From: a virus
DNA: 64,000 bases
Virus record (IMG/VR): IMGVR_UViG_3300044655_000744
Coordinates: 1 to 64,000 of that record
Strand: one strand, 5' to 3'
The notes beneath the pieces were generated by a model. That model saw only the letters and a list, made by a program, of their open reading frames with translations, was not told the DNA's origin and did not search any database. This document shows, one piece after another, positions 8,499 through 32,475 of the stretch. The first letter of the stretch is position 1, and each line of letters starts with the position of its first letter. Both the position numbers and the translations under genes were made by a program.

Positions 8499-8505
8499 GG
8501 TAAAA

Positions 8506-13860: not shown

Positions 13861-14088
13861 CTATTCGCCTATTTGATTTGCTGTATTGACGTTAACAAAA
13901 AATCTACAACTTCCTTCTGAAAGCATTAAGACATCGTAGTCGTCATATACAGCGTTGGATAATCCACTACTTGCTGTATGTCTATGGCACTTGTCACGTT
14001 TTGCGCAATGACGACCTGCGCAATAATAACCTAACCCGCCACCACTACTATTTAATACCTGTACTTCTGGTTCAATAGATTTTGTCAT
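13861..14088 (-). CDS. Small Cys/His-rich protein
   Basis: 75 residues with GYYCAGRHCAKRDKCHRHT near the middle and GSCRFFVNV towards the end: four Cys and two His in a pattern that could bind one metal ion. AGGATAATGG upstream gives the binding site. I recognise the CxGRxCAKRDxCxRH theme from phage small proteins but know no function. Confidence 0.65.
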   Translation of the reverse strand: MTKSIEPEVQVLNSSGGGLGYYCAGRHCAKRDKCHRHTASSGLSNAVYDDYDVLMLSEGSCRFFVNVNTANQIGE

Positions 14089-14145
14089 CCATTATCCTCC
14101 GAACGTAGTTTATATATTGTTCGAAGTTCTCTCTTTTAGTACACA

Positions 14146-14161
14146 CTTAACTCGCGTTAAG
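14146..14161 (-). other. GNRA-loop hairpin after the glycan island
   Basis: CTTAAC-GCGA-GTTAAG, a perfect 6-bp stem with a GCGA tetraloop ten bases past the stop at 14171. No T-run follows, so an mRNA 3'-end stabiliser is likelier than a terminator. Confidence 0.5.
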
Positions 14162-14170
14162 ATAGGATAA

Positions 14171-15007
14171 CTACTCTAGGCCTAAAATTCCAGGATTATC
14201 TTGGAGGAATTTGTGGCGATAATAGTTCCAAATGCTGTATATTTCGTCACTTTCGTACTGGTTTATCAGTACTTTTAAGTTACTCAGAGCCGATAGATCA
14301 CCCGCATATTTGTGATATTTCTGTGGCAATGTTTCGGCTGTGTACTGATAAGGCAGTGATTTAAATCCTTCTAAATCAATAAATGTAGGTATTAATCGCT
14401 CAATTAAGAATATAAAGTTTGGCAATGATTTGTCGTGAGCGTAGTTACTTAGGCCTTCTCCAAACACTAATTGTTTAAACTCTGGATCCTTTTCTGCTTC
14501 TGTGAATAGTTTACGACTGAATTCCATGAACTTATCCCAGAACGCACGACTACCAACAACATAGTTAGCGTACATAGTCACATTGCGATCAAGAACCATT
14601 TCTTTAACACCAACATCCTCGTAGCCAATTTTCTTTAAGAATGTATTAGCAATTTCACTGATGTTAGGATGATGTAGATCACCTTGTTCCCAACTGTTGA
14701 CAAAACAGGCTTCGTTGATTAGTGCCGGATTAACAAAGTAAACATCATAGCCCGGATTAGCAGCAATAAAGTCTGTGAACTGTTTTGCCATGAGGCTAGT
14801 CTTTTCACCAAATTTCCAACTGACATATCCCCAATAGTCTAACCCCTCACTAACACGTTTGTCATGTTCTTTATCCCATATATACCACTCGCGAAGTTCT
14901 GGACGAGGATTTTTTGTATTATCGTAAGGTGTAAAATACTCAAAATCTATATAGTTGCGTTGTTCGTTTTTAAAGTACAGTTGATATATTTTTATGTTTA
15001 GTGACAT
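14171..15007 (-). CDS. Probable glycosyltransferase-like protein, unassigned
   Basis: 278 residues. Contains DVYFVNPALINEACFVNSWEQG and VVGSRAFWDKFMEFSRKLF, the latter resembling the helix after the acceptor site in sugar-transferase-like proteins that accompany glycan clusters. No DXD motif stands out. It overlaps the 3' end of the upstream gene by 38 bases and is the last gene of the glycan island, next to a glycosyltransferase. I cannot assign a reaction. Confidence 0.5.
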   Translation of the reverse strand: MSLNIKIYQLYFKNEQRNYIDFEYFTPYDNTKNPRPELREWYIWDKEHDKRVSEGLDYWGYVSWKFGEKTSLMAKQFTDFIAANPGYDVYFVNPALINEACFVNSWEQGDLHHPNISEIANTFLKKIGYEDVGVKEMVLDRNVTMYANYVVGSRAFWDKFMEFSRKLFTEAEKDPEFKQLVFGEGLSNYAHDKSLPNFIFLIERLIPTFIDLEGFKSLPYQYTAETLPQKYHKYAGDLSALSNLKVLINQYESDEIYSIWNYYRHKFLQDNPGILGLE

Positions 15008-15725
15008 ACTGTGTTATTTCCTCTGTTAAGTCTCGACATCTAGGCATAAACTCGTTTTCAAGTCTATACTCCAATGTTTCTTTAGTTGTTATATGATGGA
15101 AGCCCCAATTGCGTTGACGATCAATTAAAGGGATCTGAGTTTGGATCTGTAGCTTACGTGCTAGTGTTTCTTCATTAAATGGGCACCAACCGTAGTAAAA
15201 CACAACTAACTTGTCCGTTGTATAGTTGCCATAATGTCTACCCGGAACAGGATATTGTATAGGAACATTATGAATACTACGAGCGCGACGTTCCATAAAG
15301 TCTACGTGTGTATTAAAGCTAAATCCATCTGTCTTTTGCTCGTATAAAGGCTTATCTTGGCTAACTGGTCTTGTTCTGTCACAATCTACAAAAAAGACAC
15401 TAGGTAGTAAGTGTTGCCCCGGCTGTTCGTCTAAGATTGAATAATCTCCAATCAATAGTTCTGTTACATTAAGACAAATGCGCCAACCTTCAATAGACTT
15501 TTCTAAATCCATAACTTCATAATCAATTGTATCTGCTTGGAAGTTAGGATTACGACTCATTACTATGTCCCAGGTTGGACATATTTCTTTGATAATCTCA
15601 CGGCTACGATCAGTGCTGTGATAGTCGATCATAATGCCATGATCAAAAATACCCTTATGGTGATTTAAGAACCACGGCAACATGTATTCTTCGTTATAGA
15701 AGTGACAAAGAATTGTTTTCTTCAT
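14970..15725 (-). CDS. Glycosyltransferase family 2-like
   Basis: 251 residues starting MKKTILCHFYNEEYMLPWFL with HHKGIFDHGIMIDYHSTDRS: the NEE...W...H...G...D..STD pattern of GT-A transferases of the Glyco_tranf_2_4 kind. A later FFVDCD may be the metal-binding DXD equivalent. Transfers a sugar from a nucleotide donor; acceptor unknown. Located in an island with two epimerases and several methyltransferases, consistent with synthesis of a decorated glycan on the host surface or virion. Confidence 0.7.
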   Translation of the reverse strand: MKKTILCHFYNEEYMLPWFLNHHKGIFDHGIMIDYHSTDRSREIIKEICPTWDIVMSRNPNFQADTIDYEVMDLEKSIEGWRICLNVTELLIGDYSILDEQPGQHLLPSVFFVDCDRTRPVSQDKPLYEQKTDGFSFNTHVDFMERRARSIHNVPIQYPVPGRHYGNYTTDKLVVFYYGWCPFNEETLARKLQIQTQIPLIDRQRNWGFHHITTKETLEYRLENEFMPRCRDLTEEITQYVTKHKNISTVL

Positions 15726-15726
15726 G

Positions 15727-16389
15727 TTAAACTGGATCTGGTCCTACACGTTTCATAATATACAAGCCAGGTGCTGACTCATATACCTTTTCAGTGGCCC
15801 ACTGTGGGTTAGCCGCTAAGAATTCTTCAACGGCAGCCATTAGACCTTTATGGTCATCACCTTCACCACGACGACCAAATGTCACTGTGTCATGTAGAAT
15901 GATGTATTTCTTAGCCTTAGGTGCGTGAAGTTCAAACTCACGTGCTAGGCTAGCATAGTGATGGTAAGTGTCGATGAACAGTAAATCAGTGGGCTCGCAG
16001 TTGTAGTAAGGAATTGGTTTACCGGCATTCCATTCACCACGATGTTCTTCATTGTTTAACCAATGACAGTGTGTGTTTAACTCTGCTGTAACTCCGTGAT
16101 TGGTGTCACCTGCCACAAACTCAAAGTCGATACCTAGGTCTTTGGCAACACCACGCACTTCTTCTACTGGACATAAGTGGTCAATGTCTACACTTACCAG
16201 GCGTTTAGGTTTAGCACTTAGCCATGCCCATGTACTACAGACAATTGCCACACCCATCTCGGTGATGTGATCACAGCCCTTGGCATATTCTGCTAGAGGT
16301 TTAATGTATTCACTCATTTGGCTGTTGGCTAATATTTCTTTATTGGCAATCGCTTCTATGCGTGCCTGAACTAATTCTTCTGCGGTCAT
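15727..16389 (-). CDS. SAM-dependent methyltransferase (class I)
   Basis: 220 residues. ITEMGVAIVCSTWAWL is the SAM-binding motif I (variant of E-x-G-x-x-x-G), VSVDIDHLC supplies the acidic residue of motif II, and DLLFIDTYHHYASLAREFE is the strand-4 DxxHxY block typical of the Methyltransf_24/macrocin-OMT and cephalosporin-hydroxylase-like group. Probably an O-methyltransferase on sugar. One base separates it from the GT2-like gene and two from the next methyltransferase, so it is within one operon. Confidence 0.75.
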   Translation of the reverse strand: MTAEELVQARIEAIANKEILANSQMSEYIKPLAEYAKGCDHITEMGVAIVCSTWAWLSAKPKRLVSVDIDHLCPVEEVRGVAKDLGIDFEFVAGDTNHGVTAELNTHCHWLNNEEHRGEWNAGKPIPYYNCEPTDLLFIDTYHHYASLAREFELHAPKAKKYIILHDTVTFGRRGEGDDHKGLMAAVEEFLAANPQWATEKVYESAPGLYIMKRVGPDPV

Positions 16390-16391
16390 TC

Positions 16392-17606
16392 TTATTCTAC
16401 CTTTATAGTTGGGAAATAACGGATAAACACATCGCCTTGTTTATCACGTTTTGTTTTGATCTTTGTACTTATCTCTGTGAAGAAGTTCCATGCTAAAGGA
16501 ACAAATGCTACATTAAGATCCTGACACTCATCTAGTACATCAATTGACTCAACAGGATCATGCGTACCTGGAGTAAACTTACCTTGTTTGAGTGGATTGT
16601 CGTCGATGATAAAGTCTAAGTGTATGTCACCGAAGTTAACTAAGGTCATACCCTTAGCAGCGGCACCATAACCAGCAATAACATAACCTCGGCCACGGTA
16701 TTCTTTAATTGTTTCTTTCAAGTCAACTACCACCTGTTGGGCCTTACGGGCATACTCAATGTAAGTCTGCGGATCTTGTAAACCTTGCGCACGCTCTTCG
16801 GCTAAGACTTGTTCTACCCGGCTAGCATCGCCTGCTACTTTACTAAACACGAATACATAGCTGTTACCATGGATAGGTGTTTTAGTAATATCTATTAGAT
16901 ATAAGCCAGCACGTCGAGCCAGTTCATTCATGCTGTTCGCACAGAAGAAACTTAGGTGTTCGTGATAGATAGTGTCAAACTCGTTGTTCTTAACCATGTC
17001 GGCTTGACTAGTTTGAATAAACAGTACACTACTGTCGTGCATGATTTCTTTACATTGTAGTAAAAAGTCCAACGGATAGCTATTATGAGCAAATACATTC
17101 TGTGCATTAATAATATCAATATGTTTAGCTTTTAATCCCGCTACGTGTTCAGCAGTAAAGTAATCTAAGATAACTTCATGATTCTTACTGCTAATTGGAT
17201 GTAGATTAGTAGCAGGATCAACACCGTAGGTTGTTAGCCCAACCTTCTTAAATGAATCTAATTGTGTACCATCGTTACAGGCAATGTCTAACACCGACTT
17301 TGGTTTCTCTGTAAAAAATTCTAAACTGTAATTAGCAAACCAATCAAAATAATCACGAAGTGTTTGACTAGTACCACTTACATATAGGTAGTTACGGAAT
17401 AGTAAGTCTGGGTTAACCGCATGACTTAATTGTAAGTGACTACATTCTGTACAACGATTTAGAACCAACGGGAAAGTCAATTCAGCTTCATCTTCTGTAT
17501 TAATGAAACTGTTTGCCATCGGTTGAACGCCCAAGTCTAAGGTTAGTTCTAATTGCTTACTGCCGCAACATAAGCATTCAGTGAGCTCTTTTGCGTTATC
17601 GATCAT
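16392..17606 (-). CDS. Sugar C-methyltransferase (TylCIII/NovU type)
   Basis: 404 residues with all three parts of this family: an N-terminal zinc-binding segment (CLCCGSKQLELTLDLG...PLVLNRCTECSHLQL, four Cys), a central SAM fold (VLDIACNDGTQLDSFKKVG near residue 105, EHLSFF), and the C-terminal hinge domain with VIAGYGAAAKGMTLVNF. Homologues C-methylate dTDP-4-keto-6-deoxy sugars, which fits with the 4,6-dehydratase-like gene upstream. Overlaps the epimerase gene by 11 bases. Complete and probably active. Confidence 0.85.
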   Translation of the reverse strand: MIDNAKELTECLCCGSKQLELTLDLGVQPMANSFINTEDEAELTFPLVLNRCTECSHLQLSHAVNPDLLFRNYLYVSGTSQTLRDYFDWFANYSLEFFTEKPKSVLDIACNDGTQLDSFKKVGLTTYGVDPATNLHPISSKNHEVILDYFTAEHVAGLKAKHIDIINAQNVFAHNSYPLDFLLQCKEIMHDSSVLFIQTSQADMVKNNEFDTIYHEHLSFFCANSMNELARRAGLYLIDITKTPIHGNSYVFVFSKVAGDASRVEQVLAEERAQGLQDPQTYIEYARKAQQVVVDLKETIKEYRGRGYVIAGYGAAAKGMTLVNFGDIHLDFIIDDNPLKQGKFTPGTHDPVESIDVLDECQDLNVAFVPLAWNFFTEISTKIKTKRDKQGDVFIRYFPTIKVE

Positions 17607-18522
17607 ATTCTTTTTCCCATTGATATATCATATAGTTGTCGCGACGTTCAACGTGCGACTCACTGTACTTTTTTATTAAGCTGTCTACTATTGTAGCAGG
17701 TGTTTCAGTAAATGTAAAGCCAAACGTTTGTTCAAATAAGGTAGTATCTAGGCCAAAGTCGTAGGCATTAGCGGTTGTGCCTTTGTCAACTACACTCACA
17801 GCCAGTTCCTTAGCTACAGTGTTGGCTATCGATTCAACAGTAGCATTGAAACTAGCCATATTGTAAATACCAGGAGTAGGTCGTTCTATACAATGTGTAA
17901 TGCCGCGGCATAAATCTTCTATACCCAGCAAGGCACGATTGATGTGCTTGTTGGTTACTGTGATCTTACCTTGTGTTCTGGCAGCATCGTACATGGCATT
18001 AATCATAACATCAGCACGTAGGTTGGGTGCCCAACCATTTACTGTACCAAAACGTAGACCCATTACTGTATGTCCGTTACTGATAGCAATCTTAGCTTCT
18101 AGGTCTAAAGTATATTTGGTAATGTCATAGTTGTTTACAGGAATGAACTGACGATTGGCTTCTGTGAACAGTTGCCCTGGCTCACTATTACCATAGACAC
18201 TAGCTGAACTAGCGTAAATTAAAGGAATACCGTTAAAACTTAGTTTGGCTACTAGATCAGTAAAGTTAGTAACGTTGTTTAACCAGGGACCTTGAATAGG
18301 ACCAACACAACTGGCCACACTACTATGTCCTGCTAAGAGTACCACAGCATCAAATTGACCTAGGTATGTTGAATCAAGTTTGTGGTAGTCAAGTCTACGT
18401 GAGTCGTTATCATAATTGTACCAGCAACAGTCTACACTAGCCACAGTGTAGATTGGTGCTAATACTTGTTTAAGTCTAGATCCAACGTAACCATTACCGC
18501 CAATGATTAAGATGTTTTTCAT
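17596..18522 (-). CDS. NAD-dependent sugar epimerase/dehydratase
   Basis: 308 residues, extended SDR fold: GGNGYVGSRL nucleotide-binding motif at residue 8, LLAGHSS, catalytic YASSASVYGNS and the YxxxK pair in NNYDITKYTLD, then RFGTVNG. Acts on a nucleotide sugar. Its start overlaps the upstream stop. Together with the dehydratase-like and C-methyltransferase genes it forms a pathway for a modified deoxy sugar. Confidence 0.85.
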   Translation of the reverse strand: MKNILIIGGNGYVGSRLKQVLAPIYTVASVDCCWYNYDNDSRRLDYHKLDSTYLGQFDAVVLLAGHSSVASCVGPIQGPWLNNVTNFTDLVAKLSFNGIPLIYASSASVYGNSEPGQLFTEANRQFIPVNNYDITKYTLDLEAKIAISNGHTVMGLRFGTVNGWAPNLRADVMINAMYDAARTQGKITVTNKHINRALLGIEDLCRGITHCIERPTPGIYNMASFNATVESIANTVAKELAVSVVDKGTTANAYDFGLDTTLFEQTFGFTFTETPATIVDSLIKKYSESHVERRDNYMIYQWEKEYDR

Positions 18523-19262
18523 TAGTCAATAATCATCATGCCATTTGGAGCAATGTTGCCTTGAAGGCCAACTGACTCAAGTTCAACTAATTGGTCTTTA
18601 GGAATATATTTGCCCATGCTGTGCTCAACATCAATATATTTTTGTTGATTAAATGTAGCAAACATATTGTCAAGAATAGTCTTAAACAAAACTGCTGTGT
18701 CGACTAATAAACTTGGAGTAAATGACCACAAACGTGTTTGTAACAAAATGTTTGTGCCTGTTTCTGCTTGGGGAATCCAAGCCGCTTGTGCTTTCTTAAA
18801 CACATACTTGTCTTTGGTATCTTCGTTGTCAAACTTAGTGATATCAAATTTATCAGTTAATAGATAACGACCACTTAGTTTAAAAATACGTGCTGACTCA
18901 TTGATATCTTTCATGATATCCTCATCAGACTGGATGTATGCTAAGGCCTTGGCCATACCCAAACATTCCATAGCATTTTTACCAATGTCAAAGTTTTGAA
19001 CATTGTTATGGAAGTATTGAATATCTTTATCATCGCTGTTGTCAATATAGTAGTCGACTGTATCTAGTAGTTCATTGAACTCGGGACTATCGTCGTTTTG
19101 TACATCAACTTTGCTGTTGTCAACTAAGATTACTGTTGCGTCCGGTAGATACTTACGTGCGCTACGTGCTGTATCCAATGTTTGTTGTATACGTTGTTCT
19201 GGTGTATAGATACCATAGTTACTGTATACCGCCGATGTAATTAGAACTGTGTGTTTACTCAT
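18522..19262 (-). CDS. Putative GT-A-fold glycosyltransferase
   Basis: 246 residues. The N-terminus reads VLITSAVYSNYGIYTPEQRI followed by SARKYLPDATVILVDNSK, a strand-helix-strand start like a nucleotide-sugar transferase; a DXD equivalent is not obvious. ATGA overlap with the methyltransferase upstream. Assignment depends on fold outline and context. Confidence 0.5.
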   Translation of the reverse strand: MSKHTVLITSAVYSNYGIYTPEQRIQQTLDTARSARKYLPDATVILVDNSKVDVQNDDSPEFNELLDTVDYYIDNSDDKDIQYFHNNVQNFDIGKNAMECLGMAKALAYIQSDEDIMKDINESARIFKLSGRYLLTDKFDITKFDNEDTKDKYVFKKAQAAWIPQAETGTNILLQTRLWSFTPSLLVDTAVLFKTILDNMFATFNQQKYIDVEHSMGKYIPKDQLVELESVGLQGNIAPNGMMIID

Positions 19263-19930
19263 ACTGGTGTACTCAATAGGTTAGTGATTGGTTGTTTGAC
19301 ATTTTTGTCCATTACTACTACGCTGTCATAGAAGTGCATGCCTACTAGATCTTTGTAGAAGTCAGCAAACATCATATTGTCTGGATGCTGGTCCATACCT
19401 TTGTAATAGCTACTATTCATAGTGTCTGATACTAGTTTAGCATACTGTAAGAATGTGCTAGGATTTTTAAGTCCGCCACCATATTCTGGCCAATAGTTAG
19501 TGTGTGTATCTTCACACATATAAACACCACCTTGGCTGATATGTGGCCATACCTTTTGTAAGGTTAGGATCTGATGATCTACACGATGACTACCATCGTC
19601 TAAGAACACATCAATAACGGGGTATTCTTTTAAGAACTCGTCCCAGAACGTAGGATCGCCTTGGTTACCGTTGACCTGAATACAACCCGGAGTTTGGTGC
19701 TCGGGTTTAAACGCATTAGGATCAATGTCAATACCAACAATAGTTGCGCCATCGCCGTAATACTTTTGCCACATTTCAGCACTGCCACCACGACAGATAC
19801 CAACTTCAACTACTACAGGTTTGCGGCCAACATACTTGCTGAAGTGTTGTTCATAGATGTCAAAGTAATGACTCCATTTACCACAGTGTCGCTCTAAATT
19901 ATTAAAAATATCAATTAGCATCGTAACCAT
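19259..19930 (-). CDS. SAM-dependent methyltransferase (macrocin-OMT-like)
   Basis: About 220 residues. VVEVGICRGGSAEMW is SAM motif I, GIDIDPNAF motif II, VIDVFLDDGSHRVDHQ the metal-coordinating/catalytic strand and YMCEDTHTNYW a further conserved block of macrocin O-methyltransferase-like enzymes. Two starts are possible, ATG at 19930 or at 19921; the latter is closest to the stop of the dehydratase gene. Likely methylates a sugar hydroxyl. Confidence 0.78.
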   Translation of the reverse strand: MVTMLIDIFNNLERHCGKWSHYFDIYEQHFSKYVGRKPVVVEVGICRGGSAEMWQKYYGDGATIVGIDIDPNAFKPEHQTPGCIQVNGNQGDPTFWDEFLKEYPVIDVFLDDGSHRVDHQILTLQKVWPHISQGGVYMCEDTHTNYWPEYGGGLKNPSTFLQYAKLVSDTMNSSYYKGMDQHPDNMMFADFYKDLVGMHFYDSVVVMDKNVKQPITNLLSTPV

Positions 19931-20943
19931 CTCTCATTGTCAAGTGTCCATTGTACTACTTCACCGATACGTTCTGTTAGGCTAACCTTAGGTTCCCAAC
20001 CCAATTCACGCATGTAGTCACCGCTTAGTGCGTAACGTAGGTCATGCCCTGGACGACTGCTATGGAAGTCGACCATTTCATACTTAAGTTCTTTGCCCTG
20101 AGCATCAGCGATGATCTGTGCCAACTGTAAGTTGTTGATCTCTTGCTTGCCTACTAGATTGAACTTAGGACATTTAGCATCACCGTAGTCTGGTTTAAGT
20201 TTAGTTGAGTCTAGGCCTAGCAAGAAGAACATAGCATCAGCTACGTCTGCGGCATGGATGTAAAAACGACTGCCTGGAATTGTACGTGTGCTGTCGCTGT
20301 GGATAGTAATAGCATCGCCATCATTTACCTTACGAATACACATTGGAATAAACTTTTCTGGGTGTTGACGTTGACCAAACACATTCATTGTATGTGTAAT
20401 GTAAATAGGCATCTTGTAGGTATTTTCAAACGCTACAGCTAATTCTTCACCGCCGGCTTTGGTTGCTGAGTATGGATTTGAACTATTGTAACGATCACGC
20501 TCACCGTAGTTTACGCCATTTGGTGCTGGACCAAATACTTCATCTGTTGAGAAGTAGATAAAGCGTTCTAGGTTAGGTAGTTTGCGAGCAAACTCTAAGA
20601 TGTGGCCTGTGCCAACCACATTGTCCCAAACAAACTCCATTGGGAACTCAATTGAGCGATCAACGTGCGATCCTGCCGCCAGGTGTAGGATGTAGTTAAC
20701 GTCACCAATGTCGCGAGCAACCATTGGATTTAATTCAGCACGTAGATCATGGAACACAACTTTAACACGTTTGCGTGTTTCTGTATCGAAGTTTGCCATC
20801 ATATCACTTAGGCGATTTAAGTTGCCACTAAAGTCTAGGCGATCTAAACTTACAATATTCCAATCGGTATTTCTTAATAGGTTTTCAATAACGTGGTGCG
20901 CGATAAAGCCTGCGCCGCCAGTTACTAGAACGGTCTTTGACAT
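19915..20943 (-). CDS. dTDP-glucose 4,6-dehydratase-like SDR
   Basis: 342 residues from the ATG at 20943, chosen over an upstream GTG because GGAG lies seven bases before it. Extended SDR with TGGAGFIAHHVIENLL, HLAAGSHVDRSIEFP (as in RmlB), YFSTDEVFG with the catalytic Thr-Asp-Glu, and YSATKAGGEEL with the YxxxK pair. These are hallmarks of NDP-glucose 4,6-dehydratases, which make 4-keto-6-deoxy sugars. A late-type octamer precedes it. Confidence 0.85.
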   Translation of the reverse strand: MSKTVLVTGGAGFIAHHVIENLLRNTDWNIVSLDRLDFSGNLNRLSDMMANFDTETRKRVKVVFHDLRAELNPMVARDIGDVNYILHLAAGSHVDRSIEFPMEFVWDNVVGTGHILEFARKLPNLERFIYFSTDEVFGPAPNGVNYGERDRYNSSNPYSATKAGGEELAVAFENTYKMPIYITHTMNVFGQRQHPEKFIPMCIRKVNDGDAITIHSDSTRTIPGSRFYIHAADVADAMFFLLGLDSTKLKPDYGDAKCPKFNLVGKQEINNLQLAQIIADAQGKELKYEMVDFHSSRPGHDLRYALSGDYMRELGWEPKVSLTERIGEVVQWTLDNERWLRC

Positions 20944-20981
20944 TGATTTCTCCACTTTTCGTTGAATTTCTTGCTATAACG

Positions 20982-20989
20982 TATTTATT
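20982..20989 (-). promoter_or_regulatory. Late-type promoter octamer AATAAATA
   Basis: AATAAATA on the minus strand 38 bases before the ATG of the dehydratase-like gene, with a GGAG ribosome binding site between them. Confidence 0.5.
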
Positions 20990-21011
20990 TTAACACTATT
21001 CAGTGGAAAAA

Positions 21012-21167
21012 TTATGCCGTTTGGGCAACTTTGGCTTCAACGTATTCTTTAATAAATTTAATTGCTTTACGGCTTGTATCAAACACAAACTCTTTTGCTT
21101 CGTCTTCTGTGTTTAGGATAACAATAAAACCGTTAGTTACCTTACGAATTTCAATTGATTCAAACAT
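21012..21167 (-). CDS. Small conserved phage protein (51 aa)
   Basis: ATG at 21167 with AAGGAA nine bases upstream, TAA at 21012. MFESIEIRKVTNGFIVILNT then EDEAKEFVFDTSRKAIKFIK: two strands and a helix. I recognise similar short proteins in T4-like phages. Own sigma70-type promoter at 21207. Confidence 0.7.
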   Translation of the reverse strand: MFESIEIRKVTNGFIVILNTEDEAKEFVFDTSRKAIKFIKEYVEAKVAQTA

Positions 21168-21206
21168 TATATAATTCCTTAATTGATTATAAACTCTTAC
21201 TCTACA

Positions 21207-21235
21207 ATAGTAACACCAATTGAATCAATAGTCAA
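21207..21235 (-). promoter_or_regulatory. Sigma70-type promoter
   Basis: TTGACT (21235-21230), 17 bases, TACTAT (21212-21207). It abuts the terminator of the SAH hydrolase gene and serves the 51-residue gene. Confidence 0.55.
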
Positions 21236-21265
21236 CAAAAAAGGCACCATAAGATGCCTTTTTCT
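21236..21265 (-). terminator. Rho-independent terminator after SAH hydrolase
   Basis: Minus strand AAAAGGCA-TCTTATGG-TGCCTTTTTT: an 8-bp stem followed by a T-run, about 20 bases beyond the stop at 21282. Confidence 0.8.
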
Positions 21266-21281
21266 TTACTTTTTGGCTAGA

Positions 21282-22568
21282 TTAATAGCGATAAGTGTCT
21301 GGTTTGAACGGTCCTTCAACTCTAACGCCAATATAGTTAGCCTGATCCGTTGACAACTCTGTTAGTTGCGCACCAATTTGTGCTAGGTGTAGTTTAGCCA
21401 CTTTTTCATCTAGGTGTTTAGGCAACAAATGAATACTACCAGTATTGTAGTCTTCCCAGTTCTGGAACATTTCAATTTGTGCTAACACTTGATTAGTAAA
21501 GCTGTTTGACATAACAAAGCTAGGATGTCCTGTACCACAACCTAAGTTTACTAGTCGACCTTTGGCTAGAACAATAATCTTACGGCCACTTGGCATGGTC
21601 ACATGATCTACCTGTGGTTTAATCTCATCCCACTCGTAGCCAGCAATACTAGCAATGTCAATCTCGCTGTCAAAGTGACCAATGTTACATACGATAGCAT
21701 TGTTCTTCATAGCCGTCATATGATCGTGAGTGATAACGTTGATGTTACCTGTGGCTGTTACAAAGATGTCTGCTTTGTCTGCGGCATAGTCCATAGTAAC
21801 CACACGATAGCCTTCCATTGCGGCCTGTAGTGCGCAGATTGGATCTACTTCAGTTACCCAAACCTGAGCACTTAAGGCACGTAATGCAGCCGCACTACCT
21901 TTGCCCACATCTCCAAACCCTGCTACCACAGCAATCTTGCCTGCGATCATAACATCAGTAGCACGTTTAATACCATCAACTAAACTTTCACGACATCCGT
22001 ATAAGTTATCAAATTTAGTTTTAGTTACACTATCGTTAACGTTAATAGCACGTAGTTTAAAACTGCCGTTGGCAATAGCTTCGTTGATCTTATGGATACC
22101 TGTTGTGGTTTCTTCTGTAACTCCGCGAATGCCTGCTAGTAAGTTTGGATAGTTTTGATGAATATACCAAGTTAGGTCATGGCCGTCATCTAAGATCATA
22201 TTTGGTGTCCAACCTTCTTTACCACTGATTGTCTGTTCAATACACCACCAGTAATCAGCTTCTGTTTCACCTTTCCACGCATACACAGGAACACCTTGTT
22301 CAGCTAAGGCAGCTGCCGCATGATCCTGTGTACTAAAGATGTTACAGCTTGACCAGCGTACATCAGCACCTAAGGCGATAAGTGTCTGTACTAGCACCGC
22401 AGTTTGAATAGTCATATGTAATGACCCTACGATACGAGCACCCGCAAGTGGTTGCTGTAGTCGGTATTCTTCTCTAACTGCCATTAATCCCGGCATTTCC
22501 GTTTCCGCAATTGCTATTTCTTTATGGCCCCATGCGGCTAGGCCAATGTCTGCGACTTTATAATCCAT
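21282..22568 (-). CDS. ahcY: S-adenosylhomocysteine hydrolase
   Basis: 428 residues from the ATG at 22568, directly after the stop of the upstream gene; the open frame extends further but into that gene. Splits SAH to adenosine and homocysteine, relieving product inhibition of methyltransferases. Present are [11 protein letters not shown] (substrate site), [16 protein letters not shown], the NAD-binding [33 protein letters not shown] and the C-terminal KPDTYRY whose Lys and Tyr complete the NAD site of the partner subunit. Every key block is intact. With at least five methyltransferases and six radical SAM proteins nearby, a role in keeping SAM chemistry running is a reasonable inference. Confidence 0.95.
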
Positions 22569-22569
22569 A

Positions 22570-22764
22570 TTATTCAGCCTTAGGTAATTGCGGAGTATTG
22601 CTAGAACGCAATTCACTAAACTTACGATTTTTGCTGGCCGTAAAACTTGACTGAGCATCAACCATTGCGTTTTTATAAATGCGACGTGCCTCTGGATCTA
22701 ATATCCCACCCAATTGAATCTTGTTCATTTTACCAAATTTAAATGTTGCGTTTGTTTTTGCCAT
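22570..22764 (-). CDS. Small basic conserved phage protein
   Basis: 64 residues, [20 protein letters not shown] then [16 protein letters not shown]. Lys/Arg-rich, helical second half. Similar short proteins beginning MAKTNATFK occur in T4-like phages. GGAGAGCAAC upstream; two bases before ahcY. Confidence 0.7.
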
Positions 22765-22774
22765 GTTGCTCTCC

Positions 22775-23014
22775 TTAGATTGAGTTTACTTTTAGATTTA
22801 ATACAAAATTCTCTACTAACAGTTTAGTTACTGTTGCTAACAATATTGCTTCGCCATCGTCACTTTGCGTGTAATGTTGATATAACTCATACGCTTGACT
22901 GCCAACTAATTGATAGATCCTGTCCTTTTCTAAAGGTAGGCCTTCCCAATCAATTTCATCACTAAGTTCTACTTCTTTAGCAAGTTGTATGATTTCTTCT
23001 TGTGTATATTTCAT
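22775..23014 (-). CDS. Small conserved hypothetical protein
   Basis: 79 residues, MKYTQEEIIQLAKEVELSDEIDWEGLPLEKD..., acidic N-terminus then two amphipathic helices. First gene of an operon with ahcY, driven by the promoter at 23021. Not recognised. Confidence 0.65.
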   Translation of the reverse strand: MKYTQEEIIQLAKEVELSDEIDWEGLPLEKDRIYQLVGSQAYELYQHYTQSDDGEAILLATVTKLLVENFVLNLKVNSI

Positions 23015-23020
23015 ATAATT

Positions 23021-23049
23021 AGTATACCTTATATCTGTGAATAAGTCAA
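23021..23049 (-). promoter_or_regulatory. Sigma70-type promoter for the ahcY operon
   Basis: TTGACT (23049-23044), 17 bases, TATACT (23026-23021), directly in front of the 79-residue gene; it overlaps the 3' end of the preceding nucleotidyltransferase gene. Confidence 0.65.
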
Positions 23050-24068
23050 ATAAAATCTGTTAAATTATCACTATCACGTTTTAAATTAACAGCAATAGCA
23101 CGCGGATACCGATTTGCTTCATTATAATCATTAATAAGGATACGTTTAACATTCTTTAACCCACTGATTAATTCAAAGTCAACAAAGCCCAAGCTCTTAA
23201 GCATGGCGATATCCTCTTTGCGACGGCTTTCGGGCCTAGCTGTGGTAAAGATTAATTGGCCGCCGTTGGCTACTAGTTGTTTAACTCGTTCAATGTTTTT
23301 AGGCAATGGTGTAACTGGATCATCCTTCATACGATTCTGCGCCACAATAATTGTACCGTCTATATCACAGAACACCACTGCTTTGTCATTATACTCAAAC
23401 CAATCTTCAGCGGTGCCCACATCGTCATAGTCAGTGACTAATGATTCTTTAAAAATGTGTTGATCATTTAGGCACTGTTCGATAACGTGGCTAACAAAGA
23501 TTTCTTTTACATTAGCCGCATTAAGGCGATTATATGCGTCAACAAACATACTAGCACTAGCAAACTTATAGCCGCCAACGCAGAATTTATCACTGATCAC
23601 TTGTTTTTCAATAATGCTAGTAATAATACCTTGATCGTTGCTGATAATAAAACTTTTACTGCCTAACTTCTTAAGCACGTCGTGATCTTTAATACTGCTT
23701 ACACAGACATAATTGCCTTCTTGGTATTCGTGGTTAAAGAAACTATCGCAGTCTTTAACTAATATCTCCGTACTTGGGGCAATTTCTGCGGCTTTGATGA
23801 TCTGATATACTGTGTCGGCTGGGCCAGTTGTACGATTAGGTAAAACAATAACAGTAATGTCGTTGGGATATTTGTCTAGAATATAATCTACAACCGAATA
23901 CCGTTGTTCATTTTCTTCTATCAACCCTATTGTGATGTGATGCTTACCCAGGTAAGGAGCAATACTACGTTCAAACATCATGTCACCAGTATAGTCAGCA
24001 AGACTGTACTTAGGGCGCATACCCGGAAAGCGTGTACTTAATCCTGCGGCTGGTACAATTATTTCCAT
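23046..24068 (-). CDS. Nucleotidyltransferase-HAD phosphatase fusion
   Basis: 340 residues in two parts. Residues 1-220: sugar-nucleotidyltransferase-like GT-A fold (IVPAAGLSTRFPGMRPKYSL, a variant of the GxGxR...K signature; VKDCDSFF as the metal site). Residues 225-340: HAD phosphatase-like domain with VVFCDIDGTI (nucleophile Asp and acid Asp), IFTTARPESR and ILINDYN. Such fusions make and trim activated sugars or polyols for surface glycans. It is last in an operon with kinase, transferase and acyltransferase genes. Confidence 0.75.
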   Translation of the reverse strand: MEIIVPAAGLSTRFPGMRPKYSLADYTGDMMFERSIAPYLGKHHITIGLIEENEQRYSVVDYILDKYPNDITVIVLPNRTTGPADTVYQIIKAAEIAPSTEILVKDCDSFFNHEYQEGNYVCVSSIKDHDVLKKLGSKSFIISNDQGIITSIIEKQVISDKFCVGGYKFASASMFVDAYNRLNAANVKEIFVSHVIEQCLNDQHIFKESLVTDYDDVGTAEDWFEYNDKAVVFCDIDGTIIVAQNRMKDDPVTPLPKNIERVKQLVANGGQLIFTTARPESRRKEDIAMLKSLGFVDFELISGLKNVKRILINDYNEANRYPRAIAVNLKRDSDNLTDFI

Positions 24069-24799
24069 AATCGTTTAATTCCTTCTAATAAAAATATATG
24101 CTCAAACGTACCTCGTTGAGCATGTCTATAAACACGTAGTAGCATTAGGATTAACAAGTAATCATTATCTGCTTCTGGATAGCATAACTTAAGTTGCTGA
24201 CTGATGTAATTTGTTTTAACATCTAATACAATATCATCGTTACGAGTAAACCAATGTAAATCCAAGTCTTGACACAATTTAGCAATGTCAAATACGTAAC
24301 TGTCATATTCTATAGTAGCACAGTCAATTAGATAAAATCCACCTTCTGTGTAAATGATATTTTCTAATGTCAGGTCACCTACATAATTGCTATGTGGTAA
24401 GTGTGTGGGCAATCTGGCTATAAGTTCTTCAGCAGTAAATGGTAGTAGAGTAAAGTCTATTTCAGATAGTTTAGATTTATAAACTTCGGTATAGTCTTTA
24501 AGCGATTGATCTCCCATTAGTTGTGCTATAAGTTCAATTAAAAATTGTAGTAGACGATTAGGTTGATGGCTCTTAAGATATGTTTTAATATCTAGGCCGT
24601 GTATGTATTCCATGTCTAGGGTAATATCACTATTCCTAATTATATAAGGCACAGGATATCCACCTAATCTTAAGGCTGTTAGTCGTTCTACGTTTCGGCC
24701 AACTGCCCCAACTTTCCTAACAAACAAGCCCTGCTCGTTTTCCATTAGGAATATTTGATTGCCGCTAAAGCCACGAAATGTTTTTATTAAGTTAGCCAC
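24059..24799 (-). CDS. APH/choline-kinase-like phosphotransferase
   Basis: 246 residues with a degenerate nucleotide-binding N-lobe (GFSGNQIFLMENEQGLFVRKVG), and a C-lobe containing SNYVGDLTLENIIYTEGGFYLIDCATIEYDSYVFDIAKL. That corresponds to the catalytic GDLTLENI (HGDLHxxNI in the family) and metal-binding LIDCA block; the D-F-G equivalent Asp is conserved. Likely phosphorylates a sugar or amino-alcohol in the glycan pathway. Overlaps both neighbours. Confidence 0.65.
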   Translation of the reverse strand: MANLIKTFRGFSGNQIFLMENEQGLFVRKVGAVGRNVERLTALRLGGYPVPYIIRNSDITLDMEYIHGLDIKTYLKSHQPNRLLQFLIELIAQLMGDQSLKDYTEVYKSKLSEIDFTLLPFTAEELIARLPTHLPHSNYVGDLTLENIIYTEGGFYLIDCATIEYDSYVFDIAKLCQDLDLHWFTRNDDIVLDVKTNYISQQLKLCYPEADNDYLLILMLLRVYRHAQRGTFEHIFLLEGIKRLWK

Positions 24800-25865
24800 G
24801 TGATCTCAAATGTGGAGTTAGCCATTCAACTGGTATGCTATTGGTATGATCAAAGTCGGTGCTATAACAATGCATAGGTACACGTGTGCTAGCTATATAG
24901 GCTGCATCACGTGCTTGTTTCATTGCTAGTTGATCATAGTCTTCATTTGTGTCAACCCAAACAATCTTATCCTTCCAAAATAAAGGAATATCTTCTTGAA
25001 CCCAACGATAATCAGTACCTGTGGGTTGGGCAGCATAGAGCCATTGGCTAGTAGGATTAAAATTAGTCCAGGTGTTATCTCTTTCAGTGTAGCCGATACG
25101 TATTTCCATACCAGTACCAAAGAAGCCATCCGGGATAACCAACGGCGGAGCAACGTTAATTATCTGTGGGCTTACGTGACTGTATCCGTCGTAATGTCTG
25201 ACTAGCTCGCGCAATGGTGCGTATACTGGAGCGGTTAGCTCGTAACCTTTGTGCCACAGTGTATCTGTGCGGAATACCACTTCATCGCCGTATTCATTGT
25301 CTGCCCAATACTTCTTAAAGCGTGCTACCTTAAGAATACGTATAGCATCAAAGGTACGCCAAGTATATTTGACATAGTTCCCATCTGCTGTAAGTTCACA
25401 GTTATGGTGCTTACTCAATCGCATCTGTTCAGGCCAATGGCTGTAATAGATTACACTGTAGGGATTAGGGTCTTGTTGTAGATTTTTAATACCAGCACGT
25501 AGCATATCCAAACTACTGTCAATGAAGATATGGTCGTCATTGCCAGCAAAGAAGATTAGTTCATTGTCATCTGTAAACTGTTCGCATAGTGTACGCCAGT
25601 CTCTGGTATGATTGATACGGTGCCAATGTAGCTCTACATCAGGAAACAACGTGTAGATATATTCTTCTAGCTCTTGTTTACGATTAGCAAACTCAGCTTC
25701 AATTTGAATGTAGAAAATACATTTAGAAATTACTGGTAGCATTGCTGCGTAACTAGCCAGGCAATATTTAAATATGTCCATTCGACTATATTTAGGTAAC
25801 CAGTCACTGCGATGATAATAACTTAGTCCTTGGCTGGTAATTTTTACATTGAATAATAATATCAC
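24792..25865 (-). CDS. Putative glycosyltransferase
   Basis: 357 residues. The segment ELIFFAGNDDHIFIDSS near residue 105 contains an NDDH motif at the position of the DXD metal site in GT-A enzymes, preceded by a strand-helix pattern (KQELEEYIYTLFPDVELHWHRINH). Rich in Trp, Tyr and His. Function assigned from this motif and from the acyltransferase and kinase on either side. Confidence 0.55.
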   Translation of the reverse strand: MILLFNVKITSQGLSYYHRSDWLPKYSRMDIFKYCLASYAAMLPVISKCIFYIQIEAEFANRKQELEEYIYTLFPDVELHWHRINHTRDWRTLCEQFTDDNELIFFAGNDDHIFIDSSLDMLRAGIKNLQQDPNPYSVIYYSHWPEQMRLSKHHNCELTADGNYVKYTWRTFDAIRILKVARFKKYWADNEYGDEVVFRTDTLWHKGYELTAPVYAPLRELVRHYDGYSHVSPQIINVAPPLVIPDGFFGTGMEIRIGYTERDNTWTNFNPTSQWLYAAQPTGTDYRWVQEDIPLFWKDKIVWVDTNEDYDQLAMKQARDAAYIASTRVPMHCYSTDFDHTNSIPVEWLTPHLRSRG

Positions 25866-26591: not shown

Positions 26592-27386
26592 ATGCTTAAA
26601 TTATACTATCATGTAAAAAACTTGTCAAACTATCAGCAGACTTTGATTGTCCAATCACTGTTATATCTAACGGTATTATTTACATTAGTATTTGTCTTTG
26701 ACTTAGAGTTATTCTTATGGGGATTATTAATAGGTTGGGTATTATTTTGCGTTGGAGTTAGTATTAGTTTACACAAATGGGCAAGTCATCGAACATTTGA
26801 GCCGCGTAATAGATTAATAAAGTTATTCCTATTATGGGCAGGTACGCAAACAACTCTAGGTACTAGTATAGGATTTGCTGCTGGGCATCGTCAACATCAT
26901 AGAGATAGTGACGGTCCGACTGATCCGTTTATATTGACTGATAGTTTATGGCACAATATTAAGTTGTGGTTCTATCATTTCCCTACTAGCACTATTAGTC
27001 CCAGAATAGTTAAAGACCTAACAGCCGATAGCGATTACAAATTCTTTCATAAAAACTATTGGACAATATGGTCAGTGGTTCCTGCTAGTCTATTGTTAGT
27101 TGGTCCAATGTACTTTGTGTATTTCTTTGCTTTACCGGCAGTGTATGTATTTTTAGGGATGAGCTATGTCACTGTTGTAGCGCACAGCCCTCGATGGAAG
27201 AAATTGTTTAATGGCACAAACAGTTACAACGAACTAGACCACAGCTGGGATAGTTTGTTCTTTACAGTATTGTTTGCTGGAGAAGGATATCACCACAGCC
27301 ACCATGTCTATCCCGGAAAATACAATTATCAAGAAGTTAATGAACGCTTTGATCCAGCTGGTTGGATCATCCGTTTTCTTAAGTAG
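26592..27386 (+). CDS. Fatty-acid desaturase (acyl-CoA/lipid delta-9 type)
   Basis: 264 residues, integral membrane di-iron desaturase: hydrophobic segments near residues 20-60 and 155-195, and three histidine boxes, HKWASH (box 1), HRQHH (box 2) and HHSHH (box 3, after GEGYHHSHH). Introduces a double bond into fatty acyl chains, raising membrane fluidity. All His ligands are in place. Transcribed towards the second desaturase; their 3' ends overlap by eight bases. Its first codons overlap the divergent sigma70 promoter of the acyltransferase gene. Confidence 0.9.
   Translation: MLKLYYHVKNLSNYQQTLIVQSLLYLTVLFTLVFVFDLELFLWGLLIGWVLFCVGVSISLHKWASHRTFEPRNRLIKLFLLWAGTQTTLGTSIGFAAGHRQHHRDSDGPTDPFILTDSLWHNIKLWFYHFPTSTISPRIVKDLTADSDYKFFHKNYWTIWSVVPASLLLVGPMYFVYFFALPAVYVFLGMSYVTVVAHSPRWKKLFNGTNSYNELDHSWDSLFFTVLFAGEGYHHSHHVYPGKYNYQEVNERFDPAGWIIRFLK
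26600..26628 (-). promoter_or_regulatory. Sigma70 promoter of the glycan operon
   Basis: TTGACA (26628-26623), 17 bases, TATAAT (26605-26600), perfect consensus, reading left into the acyltransferase gene and lying wholly inside the start of the divergent desaturase coding region. Confidence 0.8.
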
Positions 27387-28197
27387 GAAAGTGTTGGTTG
27401 TACTGAACTCTATTTGGCACACGCCCAATCAATTTGATTAGCCAAAAACCCAAATCCCAATCTTGATCTGTGAACTTATTGCGGGCGGCGCCTGGTCTAG
27501 CATGATGATTATTATGATTGCCGTCGCCTGGCACAAAAACACTAGCCACACGACTGTTAAAACTTAAATCTCGACTATCAAAATTCTTATAGCCAAACCG
27601 AGACAACCAAGTATTGTGTGCTAGCACTGTGATATAACTGATAGCAGTAAATCCGTAAATTACCGGAACAAAGTAAAGGTAACAGGCTAACTTAATATCT
27701 ATTAGAGACAGCAGCAATACATACCCTAGCACAATTTTAAAATAATGATGATGGAAAAATTTATGTGTAGAGTCTGACATCAAGTCTTTAACTGTTCTTG
27801 GGTTAATATGATAGGTAGGGAAATAATAAAACCAAAGTTTAATACTGCGCCAAACTCCACCGCCATGAGTGTTAGGACTGTGTGGGTCTTCTGGTTTATC
27901 ACTGAACTGATGATGTTTACGGTGAGTAGCGGCCCAACTAATATTGCTACCTAGGCTAAGGATAGAACTACAAAATAACATAATCACCTTAAAGGCAGGG
28001 TGTTTACATTCAAAACTTTTATGACTACTGTATTTGTGTAGGCCCATGCTAGCGCCTATTAGGAATAATATCCAGCTAAATGCCAAACTTAATAGCAGAT
28101 ATATTAAATTAAATTGATATGCCATGGTGTAAATAAAACCAACATAGGCAAACGTTTGCAACATTTTTACTTTGGTGTCTAGACTAATTTTTATCAT
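27379..28197 (-). CDS. Second fatty-acid desaturase
   Basis: 272 residues, same architecture as the plus-strand gene but clearly diverged. Histidine boxes HKYSSH, HRKHH and HNNHH (GDGNHNNHHARPG); box 3 is preceded by FVPGDGN. Four hydrophobic segments. Two different desaturases side by side suggest action at different chain positions or on different substrates, rather than a recent duplication. It has both a sigma70-type and a T4-late-like promoter, so it may be expressed through infection. Confidence 0.9.
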   Translation of the reverse strand: MIKISLDTKVKMLQTFAYVGFIYTMAYQFNLIYLLLSLAFSWILFLIGASMGLHKYSSHKSFECKHPAFKVIMLFCSSILSLGSNISWAATHRKHHQFSDKPEDPHSPNTHGGGVWRSIKLWFYYFPTYHINPRTVKDLMSDSTHKFFHHHYFKIVLGYVLLLSLIDIKLACYLYFVPVIYGFTAISYITVLAHNTWLSRFGYKNFDSRDLSFNSRVASVFVPGDGNHNNHHARPGAARNKFTDQDWDLGFWLIKLIGRVPNRVQYNQHFPT

Positions 28198-28203: not shown

Positions 28204-28232
28204 ATTATATATGCTTTATTATTTATAGTCAA
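28204..28232 (-). promoter_or_regulatory. Overlapping early and late promoters
   Basis: TTGACT (28232-28227), 17 bases, TATAAT (28209-28204) gives a sigma70-type promoter. Inside its spacer is TATAAATA (28227-28220), an exact match to the T4 late consensus. ATG of the desaturase is at 28197. Confidence 0.65.
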
Positions 28233-28260
28233 AAAAAAGCTCACCGAAGTGAGCTTTTTT
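28230..28260 (-). terminator. Rho-independent terminator after the porin gene
   Basis: AGCTCAC-TTCG-GTGAGCT stem with a TTCG tetraloop flanked by A and T runs on both sides, so it can act in both directions. It ends porin transcription 20 bases past the stop. Confidence 0.88.
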
Positions 28261-28278: not shown

Positions 28279-29490
28279 TTAGAAGAATAAGATAGCGCCT
28301 GCCGATACTGAACGTGATTTACCTTCAGCACCGTTTTGTGCTTCTGATTTAACGTCTGAGTATTCAGCTACTAAGTTCACGTGTTTTGTGAGTGGGTGAT
28401 AAGCACCAACAGTCCACATTTCGTTTTTCGAAACCAATGCGGTAGCTGTTTCACCACTGTTACGGCCTAGTTTACTTTGACCCCAGCTTACGCCAAGTTT
28501 AGTTGCTGTAGGCAATGTGTATGTACCTTGAACGTAGCCACCGTTTGAATCACGACGACGACCTGTAGTATCAAACCCGTCTACTAATTGAATAGTACGA
28601 CCAATACCTTTACCATCATAGTAGTAAGCAGTTAAGCCATATGGACCAGCAGCTAAATTAGTACCAACGTCCCAAGCATAAGCGCGGTCATCTGCGGCAG
28701 AGCCAGTTACACCTTCAACTTTTTGTGAAATAGCACTTGACCATACTTTAGCAGCAATAGGACCTTCTAATGAGTAAGATACTTTACCTTCAAATGCTGG
28801 TTGAGCACCACCGCGTCCTGTTGATGTAGCTGAAGCAGCTTGTACGCCAGCAGTTACGGCATTTAGATCAGCTGTTTGAGCGTTCCATGCCTGTGTTACA
28901 CCTACTGTGAATTGGAAGCCGTCAAAGTTTGGTGATGTGTAAGCAACTTGTGATTTCCAGTCAGCATACATAAAGCCACTACCGATACGACCTAATGTAG
29001 TTGTGTTACCAGCTAGTGCGCCAGCACCTGCACCAACACCTAACAATGTCATATCGTTTAAGATAGCATCACTAGCAAAAATACCCAGGTCTTTACCTAG
29101 TTTTACACTACCCCATGATTTATCACCGATAGTTAAAAATGCTTGACGATTTTCTTGATTAGCACCTTGATCGCCACCCTGTGTTGTTGAAGCACCTGGG
29201 TTAATAGCGATTGTAAAACCAATGTCTAAATCATTTTGACGTGATTTACCAGAAATTGATAATACGTTTGGTAACAAGCCTGTTGTAATGTTTGATTCGT
29301 TACGTTGAGCATTGGCATTAGGACCACCTAGACCACCAACCACTGCACTACCTGTGCCGCGTGTGTTTGTATAGTAAGCGTTAACAACGCCACCAATGTC
29401 TAATGTCCAATCACCTGCCGGAACTTGAATACCTGCGTTTGCTGTAGAGTACATACCAGCTAATAATGTTGCTAATAATAATTTCTTCAT
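28279..29490 (-). CDS. Outer-membrane porin, beta-proteobacterial type
   Basis: 403 residues from the ATG at 29490 with AAAGGAG eleven bases upstream. Sec signal peptide MKKLLLATLLAGMYSTANA with an ANA cleavage site, then GIQVPAGDWTLDIGGVVNAYY, typical first strands of a Gram-negative general porin. Repeated GYY/aromatic-girdle strands (KVSYSLEG, YGLTAYYYDG, AEYSDVKS) and a terminal Phe (SAGAILFF), the BAM-recognition signature. Complete, in frame, with late-type promoter and strong terminator. It looks acquired from a host but is set up for phage-timed expression. Possible roles: altering permeability, replacing or masking the phage receptor, or nutrient supply. Which one cannot be told from sequence. 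Confidence 0.9.
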   Translation of the reverse strand: MKKLLLATLLAGMYSTANAGIQVPAGDWTLDIGGVVNAYYTNTRGTGSAVVGGLGGPNANAQRNESNITTGLLPNVLSISGKSRQNDLDIGFTIAINPGASTTQGGDQGANQENRQAFLTIGDKSWGSVKLGKDLGIFASDAILNDMTLLGVGAGAGALAGNTTTLGRIGSGFMYADWKSQVAYTSPNFDGFQFTVGVTQAWNAQTADLNAVTAGVQAASATSTGRGGAQPAFEGKVSYSLEGPIAAKVWSSAISQKVEGVTGSAADDRAYAWDVGTNLAAGPYGLTAYYYDGKGIGRTIQLVDGFDTTGRRRDSNGGYVQGTYTLPTATKLGVSWGQSKLGRNSGETATALVSKNEMWTVGAYHPLTKHVNLVAEYSDVKSEAQNGAEGKSRSVSAGAILFF

Positions 29491-29545
29491 TACTTTACTT
29501 CTCCTTTTAATGGATAACACTAATGTTATACTATCAGTGTATACG

Positions 29546-29553
29546 TATTTATC
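29546..29553 (-). promoter_or_regulatory. Late-type promoter octamer GATAAATA for the porin
   Basis: GATAAATA on the minus strand 55 bases before the porin ATG, leaving a leader with the AAAGGAG site. Confidence 0.5.
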
Positions 29554-29600
29554 GTAGTCGTTAACAGAGTGTTGCCTTTTGACAACATAGTTTGATAAAA

Positions 29601-29618
29601 TGTTGTATTTTTACAACA
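29601..29618 (-). other. Hairpin over the stop codon of a radical SAM gene
   Basis: TGTTGTA-AAAA-TACAACA, a perfect 7-bp stem that includes the TAA at 29611. A weak terminator or an mRNA 3' end marker. Confidence 0.4.
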
Positions 29619-31591: not shown

Positions 31592-32191
31592 ATGGATATT
31601 ATATTTGACAAAAAACGTAATTTTGTATACGAAACATTCTTAACTGAATTCCCTTATAGTTATGAAGAGCTGTTAACTGACCTTAAACAAGAGGATTGGA
31701 TCAGCTCAGAATCTGAGGGTTTATTGGGCAAGTTTCGTGCGCCAACTCTCAAGAGTGAAAAATTAAAATACATCATTGAATGGTTTACACAAGATTCTGC
31801 TTGCCTTAAAATAATTAAAAATATGTATCAAGACGAAGAATACTTCAATGAGTGGAAATTGTCAGCTGAAGAGCTTGATAACATTACGCATTCTAGTGCT
31901 CTTTGGACTTTAGATAAGCCCGGGTATCATGCTGCTACGCATCTAGACAATCGGCGTATAATAGGAAACGGCATGATATTCTTCACTGAGGGAGACGATC
32001 CTAACCAAAGTACTTTCTTCTATTCCGATAAAAACGGAAATAATCCGTTACGTATACCTACAGGTTATGCCCAGGGGTGGTTTGCTGCTAATACAAACGA
32101 TGCGTGGCACGAAGGGTTCAACCGTACAGCAGACAAAGATCGTTACAGCTTGTATTTTCTTATTTTTATGAATACTGCTAAAAAACATTAA
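31592..32191 (+). CDS. 2-oxoglutarate/Fe(II) oxygenase-like paralogue
   Basis: 199 residues from the ATG at 31592; earlier in-frame starts would run into the divergent gene. HLDNRRIIGNGMIFFTEGDD carries the H-x-D pair and AWHEGFNRTADKDRYSLYF the distal His and Arg, in the same order and spacing as the protein at 30932. The N-terminal halves have diverged. GGTAAATA ends five bases before the ATG. Confidence 0.75.
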   Translation: MDIIFDKKRNFVYETFLTEFPYSYEELLTDLKQEDWISSESEGLLGKFRAPTLKSEKLKYIIEWFTQDSACLKIIKNMYQDEEYFNEWKLSAEELDNITHSSALWTLDKPGYHAATHLDNRRIIGNGMIFFTEGDDPNQSTFFYSDKNGNNPLRIPTGYAQGWFAANTNDAWHEGFNRTADKDRYSLYFLIFMNTAKKH

Positions 32192-32475
32192 CCAGCAAAC
32201 GTATCGCCCGAACCAGCAGCTACCGCAGTACACCCAGCGATAGCATCACCTACTCGACCCATACCCTTACCATTAACAAATACAGTAGCACTACCAGCAG
32301 CTATCGGTGCCGAATGGCCGGGGCAAGGTGCTCCTGGTAATAAATGTCCTGTATTTACATCGCCTTGACGGCTAATAGGAATACCATTACAGAACGTATC
32401 CGGACTACCGACGGCACGTGTCATACCCGAACAGTGTGTTACGTCTGCGTCACCAACTCTAGTTACTGCGGGCAC
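32188..32475 (-). CDS. PAAR-repeat spike tip protein
   Basis: 95 residues with the PAAR layout: MPAVTRVGDADVTHCSG, HLLPGAPCPGHSAPIAAGSATVFVNGKGMGRVGDAI. Metal ligands of the PAAR cone (His/Cys residues in THCSG, CPGHS) are present. PAAR proteins sharpen the tip of the membrane-puncturing spike of contractile tails (T4 gp5.4). Overlaps the gene upstream by 17 bases. Its 3' end meets the plus-strand oxygenase gene, overlapping by four bases. Confidence 0.9.
   Translation of the reverse strand: MPAVTRVGDADVTHCSGMTRAVGSPDTFCNGIPISRQGDVNTGHLLPGAPCPGHSAPIAAGSATVFVNGKGMGRVGDAIAGCTAVAAGSGDTFAG

Follow-up and report, generated by a model that had tools for sequence, protein, structure and literature searches.

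We identified a complete general porin gene of bacterial descent in a T4-like phage whose hosts, judging by gene kinship, are probably Methylophilaceae. The gene lies in a stretch of 64,000 nucleotides, here called the window, which is part of a linear virus record of 99,582 bases (IMG/VR record IMGVR_UViG_3300044655_000744, positions 1 to 64,000). Leader alignments and porin trees show a conserved expression unit of phage-type promoter, leader and signal peptide, behind which stand mature barrels that derive from at least three Methylophilaceae porin lineages. In our best explanation, which we hold with moderate confidence, this late-expressed, bacterium-derived general porin with its swapped barrels sustains solute uptake late in the infection of Methylophilaceae by T4-like phages.

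A complete porin gene in a T4-like phage

The initial annotation, made from the letters alone, had described a complete porin with signal peptide, C-terminal phenylalanine, ribosome site, late-type octamer and terminator. All of these were borne out, and the coordinates and strand of the open reading frame proved exact. The features of the locus are:

28279..29490 (-), porin gene, 403 aa, ATG start, with a mature barrel akin to Methylophilaceae general porins
29434..29490 (-), signal peptide MKKLLLATLLAGMYSTANA, codons 1-19, of phage type
29500..29505 (-), ribosome-binding site AGGAGA, 9 nt before the ATG and conserved in the leader alignment
29524..29541 (-), conserved leader element TACACTGATAGTATAACA of the leader alignment, which with downstream bases could fold a hairpin at the mRNA 5' end
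29546..29553 (-), T4-type late promoter octamer GATAAATA, conserved before the porins of relatives as TATAAATA or CTAAATA
29571..29586 (-), porin-leader inverted repeat GTTGTCAAAAGGCAAC, kept in leaders of the same class including that of contig L183, whose porin is from another host lineage
29601..29618 (-), inverted repeat TGTTGTAAAAATACAACA, which may terminate the radical-SAM gene upstream
28231..28260 (-), Rho-independent porin terminator, a 12-pair hairpin (-15.2 kcal/mol, z -5.0) followed by a T-run

The encoded protein matched the Pfam family Porin_4 (PF13609) at full length, with an E-value of 5e-20 over residues 9-383 and 72.9 bits against a cut-off of 27, covering positions 4-308 of the 310 in the profile. 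With 15.7 bits against a cut-off of 20.9 it fell outside the phosphate-selective porin O/P family (PF07396). An AlphaFold2 model built on a 52-row alignment (pLDDT 77, pTM 0.79) was interpreted as a barrel of 16 strands whose third loop is long, the strand count being a reading of DSSP output and the constriction loop L3 (residues 136-177) lying at low pLDDT. Taken with the matches to solved structures, the model places in one protein the predicted 16-strand barrel, an inward L3, the signal peptide and a C-terminal phenylalanine (ILFF). The best Foldseek matches among solved structures were Burkholderia Omp38, Comamonas Omp32 and Neisseria PorB, which have the general porin fold in common with the window porin at a structural-alignment identity of just 12-16%; a sequence search of the PDB gave no sequence-level match. 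All three are beta-proteobacterial porins, the look that had been noted at the outset. Entries named 'OmpC porin' from uncultured Caudovirales phages (BFVD, for example A0A6J5L4P1) have a porin-like fold too, at 14% identity to the window porin. The general porins of Methylophilaceae (PF13609) resemble it in mature barrel, constriction loop and C-terminus at 62-71% identity, but the phage porin differs from them in its phage-type signal peptide and leader, its T4-type late promoter and its location in a phage genome.

The motif [GT]ATAAATA occurs in nine copies in the window, seven of which lie at most 70 nt upstream of an open reading frame on the same strand (P 4e-9 against chance position); the reading frames behind these octamers include a virion structural gene and a gp32-like SSB. 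Judged by this placement, the octamers are a real promoter class in the window phage. Folds of the 5' leader hairpin were weak (z -1.7 to -2.4), and such a hairpin in the porin mRNA is suggestive only. Upstream of the porin promoter, in the window (29571-29618) and in porin leaders of relatives, the short inverted repeats GTTGYCAAAAGGCAAC and TGTGGCAGAAATGCCACA/TGTTGTAAAAATACAACA may be operators or terminators.

The record encodes a major capsid protein of the gp23 family (PF07068, E 6e-98, at 89310-90296 of the 99,582 bases) on the same contig as a T4-type terminase, which identifies the phage as T4-like. TerL (by PHROG matches) lies in the window, and the phage also has a tail sheath; the Pfam tail sheath family (PF04984) was insensitive in the phage records examined. 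The closest cultured terminases, about 54% identical, belong to large Pseudomonas phages such as PA5oct. The porin recurs on about 15 other viral contigs (13 IMG/VR contigs at 86-100% identity and three more at 45-57%); IMG/VR contigs bearing related names may share their lakes of origin, and the contigs count as separate assemblies, not all as separate places. Seven records (G000, G003, G004, G007, G008, G024 and G025) carry TerL and the porin on one contig, and G001 has a partial TerL. An assembly chimera had been named at the outset as what would overturn the finding. A one-off chimera is ruled out because the gene recurs in a phage setting on many viral contigs that were assembled separately, seven of which also carry TerL; the 187 Methylophilaceae genomes, moreover, lack the phage-type leader element. 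Nothing was found in favour of chimerism or bacterial contamination, and the chance that either explains the porin is vanishingly small.

The view that porins lie outside the T4-like core fits what was found: the gene is accessory, being present in 4 of 47 TerL-related records, most of which are fragments, and it was not found in the TerL-related records of 118, 91, 114 and 202 kb. Two of the porin types had no match among the cultured phages of INPHARED, and a literature search found no paper joining phage porins with Methylophilaceae hosts.

Donor lineage and exchange of barrels

All 53 relatives found in genome contigs came from Methylophilaceae or proteobacterial bins, those included in the tree grouped with Methylophilaceae, and 141 of 187 Methylophilaceae genomes had a porin match. 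By this kinship the donor family is the Methylophilaceae, which answers the proposal that a phylogeny against bacterial porins be used to name the donor. Three phage porin types were distinguished. The window type has 62-71% identity to its nearest host porins; the type of contigs L180 and L182 is nearest to small-genome members of the family (64-68%), and that of L183 to another host group (59-63%). In a 103-row tree the three types fell in three separate host clades, so that phage genes are nested among host genes at three separate positions, as in host-derived auxiliary genes. In a careful 34-row tree, none of 200 bootstrap trees joined the three types, and the AU test rejected a single phage clade (p-AU 1.8e-64). 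A single capture followed by divergence is ruled out by the tree and this test. The second type is represented by two contigs and the third by one 25 kb contig (L183) on a long branch, and for the L183 porin the separation from the window type is firmer than the choice of an exact sister.

Porin identity between phages was set beside that of two other genes of the window:

21282..22661 (-), S-adenosylhomocysteine hydrolase (SAHase; Pfam and NCBIfam ahcY)
19915..20955 (-), NAD-dependent epimerase/GDP-mannose dehydratase-type gene (Pfam PF16363/PF01370)

Between phages with different porin types the porins are 52-57% identical, against 80-88% for SAHase and 92-93% for the epimerase where held; between phages the epimerase is 92-97% identical, including where the porins are 57% identical. 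The 150-nt leaders of the window and L183 share 85% identity over 129 nt, while their porins are 52% identical. The leader of L005, which has a window-type porin, resembles the L180 and L182 leaders instead, more weakly. Upstream regions of host porins differ from the phage leaders. A host-type promoter carried along with the gene was rejected: the best local score between a host and a phage leader was 31, against 73-235 among window-class leaders, and the 18-nt leader element (TACACTGA(N)TAGTATAACA) was found in none of the 187 Methylophilaceae genomes. Within a collection of 2.9 million, this element occurs in exactly 11 viral contigs, all of them porin-bearing.

Alignment scores of the signal peptides were 67-83 among the phage types, and no host signal peptide in the comparison scored above 43 with a phage one. 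At the DNA level, the signal peptide of the window type is 72-75% identical to those of the two other phage types, as compared to 46-56% between phages and hosts; for the mature parts, leaving aside L3 and the first strand, identity between the window and these two types is about 46-63%. Against hosts L016 and L019 the pattern of signal-peptide and mature identity is reversed. By these comparisons the signal peptides track the leader and not the barrel. Because leader and signal peptide are phage-type while the barrels nest in three host clades, the phage has kept its expression unit and barrels were taken from hosts repeatedly. Homologous recombination between phage and host porin genes, beyond the signal peptide, would be the simplest mechanism for the swap. 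The phage-type signal peptide may alternatively stem from a host lineage that has escaped sampling. The idea of a host gene under phage control is thereby supported and sharpened, with a Methylophilaceae donor and with promoter, leader and signal peptide of phage and not host type; the related phages, whose examination had been advised, yielded the three porin types and the repeated exchange of barrels behind the phage-type unit.

Gene neighbourhood of the porin

The porin occupies at least two gene contexts among phages. SAHase lies directly upstream of it in eight related contigs, and in the window the two are 5.6 kb apart with other genes between them; the epimerase gene marks the downstream side of the porin slot in L010 and L180. 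L008, L009 and L014 have other flanking genes with a CsgF/CsgG block, and T4-type replication genes are present in the record of L009. In L009 (about 5177-9813; also in L008 and L014) CsgF, CsgG, FecR-like and curlin-repeat genes lie upstream of the porin, a block that resembles the one in pelagimyophages and Melnitz but has in addition a possible gene for a secreted substrate. In a curli-carrying phage (record G006), the N-terminus encoded at L252:8163-9767 has the look of a flavoenzyme of tryptophan-halogenase type.

Next to the porin, the window has two convergent fatty-acid desaturase genes (26592-27386, +, and 27379-28197, -); the second carries a TATAAATA and a TTGACT-N17-TATAAT of its own, and desaturase-like genes are also near the porin in L005 and L008. 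A long block at window positions 13291-25865 includes sugar-nucleotide, methyltransferase and hexapeptide-transferase genes of the surface-polysaccharide-synthesis type. The 95-aa protein encoded at 32188-32475 (-) has, by eye, the look of a PAAR-type spike tip.

In relatives, the neighbours of the porin include an OprP-like porin (PF07396), PstS (TIGR02136), a phosphoesterase and a PQQ methanol/ethanol dehydrogenase. This second porin, unlike the window porin, matches PF07396, and the phosphoesterase is calcineurin-like and weakly like LpxH. A phosphate module adjoins the porin in L003 (11622-14889) and also in L005, L008, L009 and L012; its members are PstS (family assignment tested in L003), an OprP-like porin and a calcineurin-like phosphoesterase. 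In L005 and L009 the OprP-like reading frame opens with an N-terminus that elsewhere belongs to PstS, as though a deletion of PstS had joined its signal region to the porin. A PstS-like gene paired with an OprP-like porin was also seen in L154 (record G055, 1426-3957), a T4-like record (TerL 71%) without a general porin. Directly downstream of the phage porin in L008 (11459-13324) lies a PQQ-dependent dehydrogenase of the methanol/ethanol family (TIGR03075, 613 bits). The T4-like Methylophilaceae viruses VP_139 and VP_266 from Lake Baikal encode methanol dehydrogenase and SAHase (PMC7678222). They share inferred host family and phage type with the porin phages, in which both genes also occur in or near porin loci, but a porin is unmentioned in the main text of that paper.

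Candidate functions of the phage porin

Among eight distinct window-type phage copies dN/dS was 0.06-0.17, and the porin gene is by this measure subject to purifying selection. Of its parts, the constriction loop L3 had the lowest dN/dS (0.07) and the external loops about 0.20. Identity of L3 was 0.90 between phage and host as compared to 0.91 between hosts, and that of the external loops 0.47 as compared to 0.49. In this comparison of loop identity and dN/dS, neither positive selection nor loop-specific change was found in the external loops. Loops reshaped for receptor escape were not seen, phage and host differing in the external loops no more than hosts do among themselves. The conserved constriction loop speaks for a functioning channel whose selectivity is host-like; the phage porin may still differ from the porin of its own host strain.

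Sustained late uptake is the best reading of the conserved constriction loop, the uptake neighbours and the methanol dehydrogenase and SAHase of the Baikal viruses taken together. The porin would be transcribed late from the T4-type promoter with phage leader and signal peptide, exported and assembled by the host Bam machinery, and act as an ordinary small-solute channel in the outer membrane. This channel would keep or raise nutrient flow across the outer membrane once host transcription has stopped, and would act alongside the OprP-like porin, PstS, phosphoesterase and methanol dehydrogenase neighbouring it in relatives. Some points count against feeding alone. The window phage is without a neighbouring OprP-like porin, late timing fits receptor removal or progeny release equally, and selection on surface identity would likewise be expected to bring about barrel swapping. 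Among the three functions that the initial annotation proposed, a change in permeability or uptake would fit better, given L3 conservation and the uptake neighbours; receptor replacement and a block to superinfection, which together form the main rival, are possible and found no specific support.

According to this rival, a late phage porin displaces or dilutes the host receptor porin, rivals or sibling virions then fail to bind the dying cell or its debris, and barrels are swapped since a porin unlike that of the current host is useful. We regard it as possible but short of probable. Porins are common phage receptors, and the temperate lambdoid phage PA-2 carries a porin (Lc) that alters receptor display. 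Lc and NmpC of prophage DLP12 are phage-borne porins as here, but PA-2 and DLP12 are temperate lambdoid phages of Enterobacteria whereas the porin phages are T4-like. The late promoter and the exchange of barrels under one expression unit agree with receptor replacement as well, and an S-layer protein has been proposed to serve methylophage Melnitz in this way (PMC9004378). It is opposed by the external loops, which are under purifying selection and show the host-host level of difference given above, and by the uptake genes that neighbour the porin in relatives.

A role in envelope maintenance or release is unlikely. Together with phage desaturases, sugar genes and the CsgGF pores of other relatives, the porin would keep the outer membrane intact until lysis or weaken it at lysis, its channel activity being incidental. 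Such a role could account for the two desaturases adjoining the porin in the window and for the CsgG/CsgF block upstream of it in L008, L009 and L014, and a lysis-timing role has been proposed for CsgGF of Melnitz (PMC9004378). However, the strong conservation of L3 points to a working channel, and in L003, L010 and L180 the porin has no desaturase next to it. It is very improbable that the porin is a passenger, that is, a highly expressed host gene captured repeatedly by accident and of no benefit to the phage: Methylophilaceae porin genes are reported to be highly expressed (PMC5723320) and the phage porin is accessory, but purifying selection over the eight distinct copies, a dedicated late promoter and leader, and recurrence in one slot speak against it.

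It is also possible, though not probable, that the locus is a surface cassette, in which promoter, leader and signal peptide are fixed by the phage and barrels from different bacterial lineages are exchanged by recombination, the phage thereby setting the porin identity of the infected cell and hence its reinfection or uptake. If this were true, the phage would decide who can reinfect the infected cell or what the cell takes up. Known phage genes for feeding the infected cell mostly serve photosynthesis, phosphate binding and nucleotide synthesis. An outer-membrane porin that is complete and has been renewed from different bacterial lineages at least three times, behind one phage-type expression unit, would extend such cell-feeding genes to the outer membrane, and feeding and receptor masking would make opposite, testable predictions for these phages of abundant freshwater methanol users.
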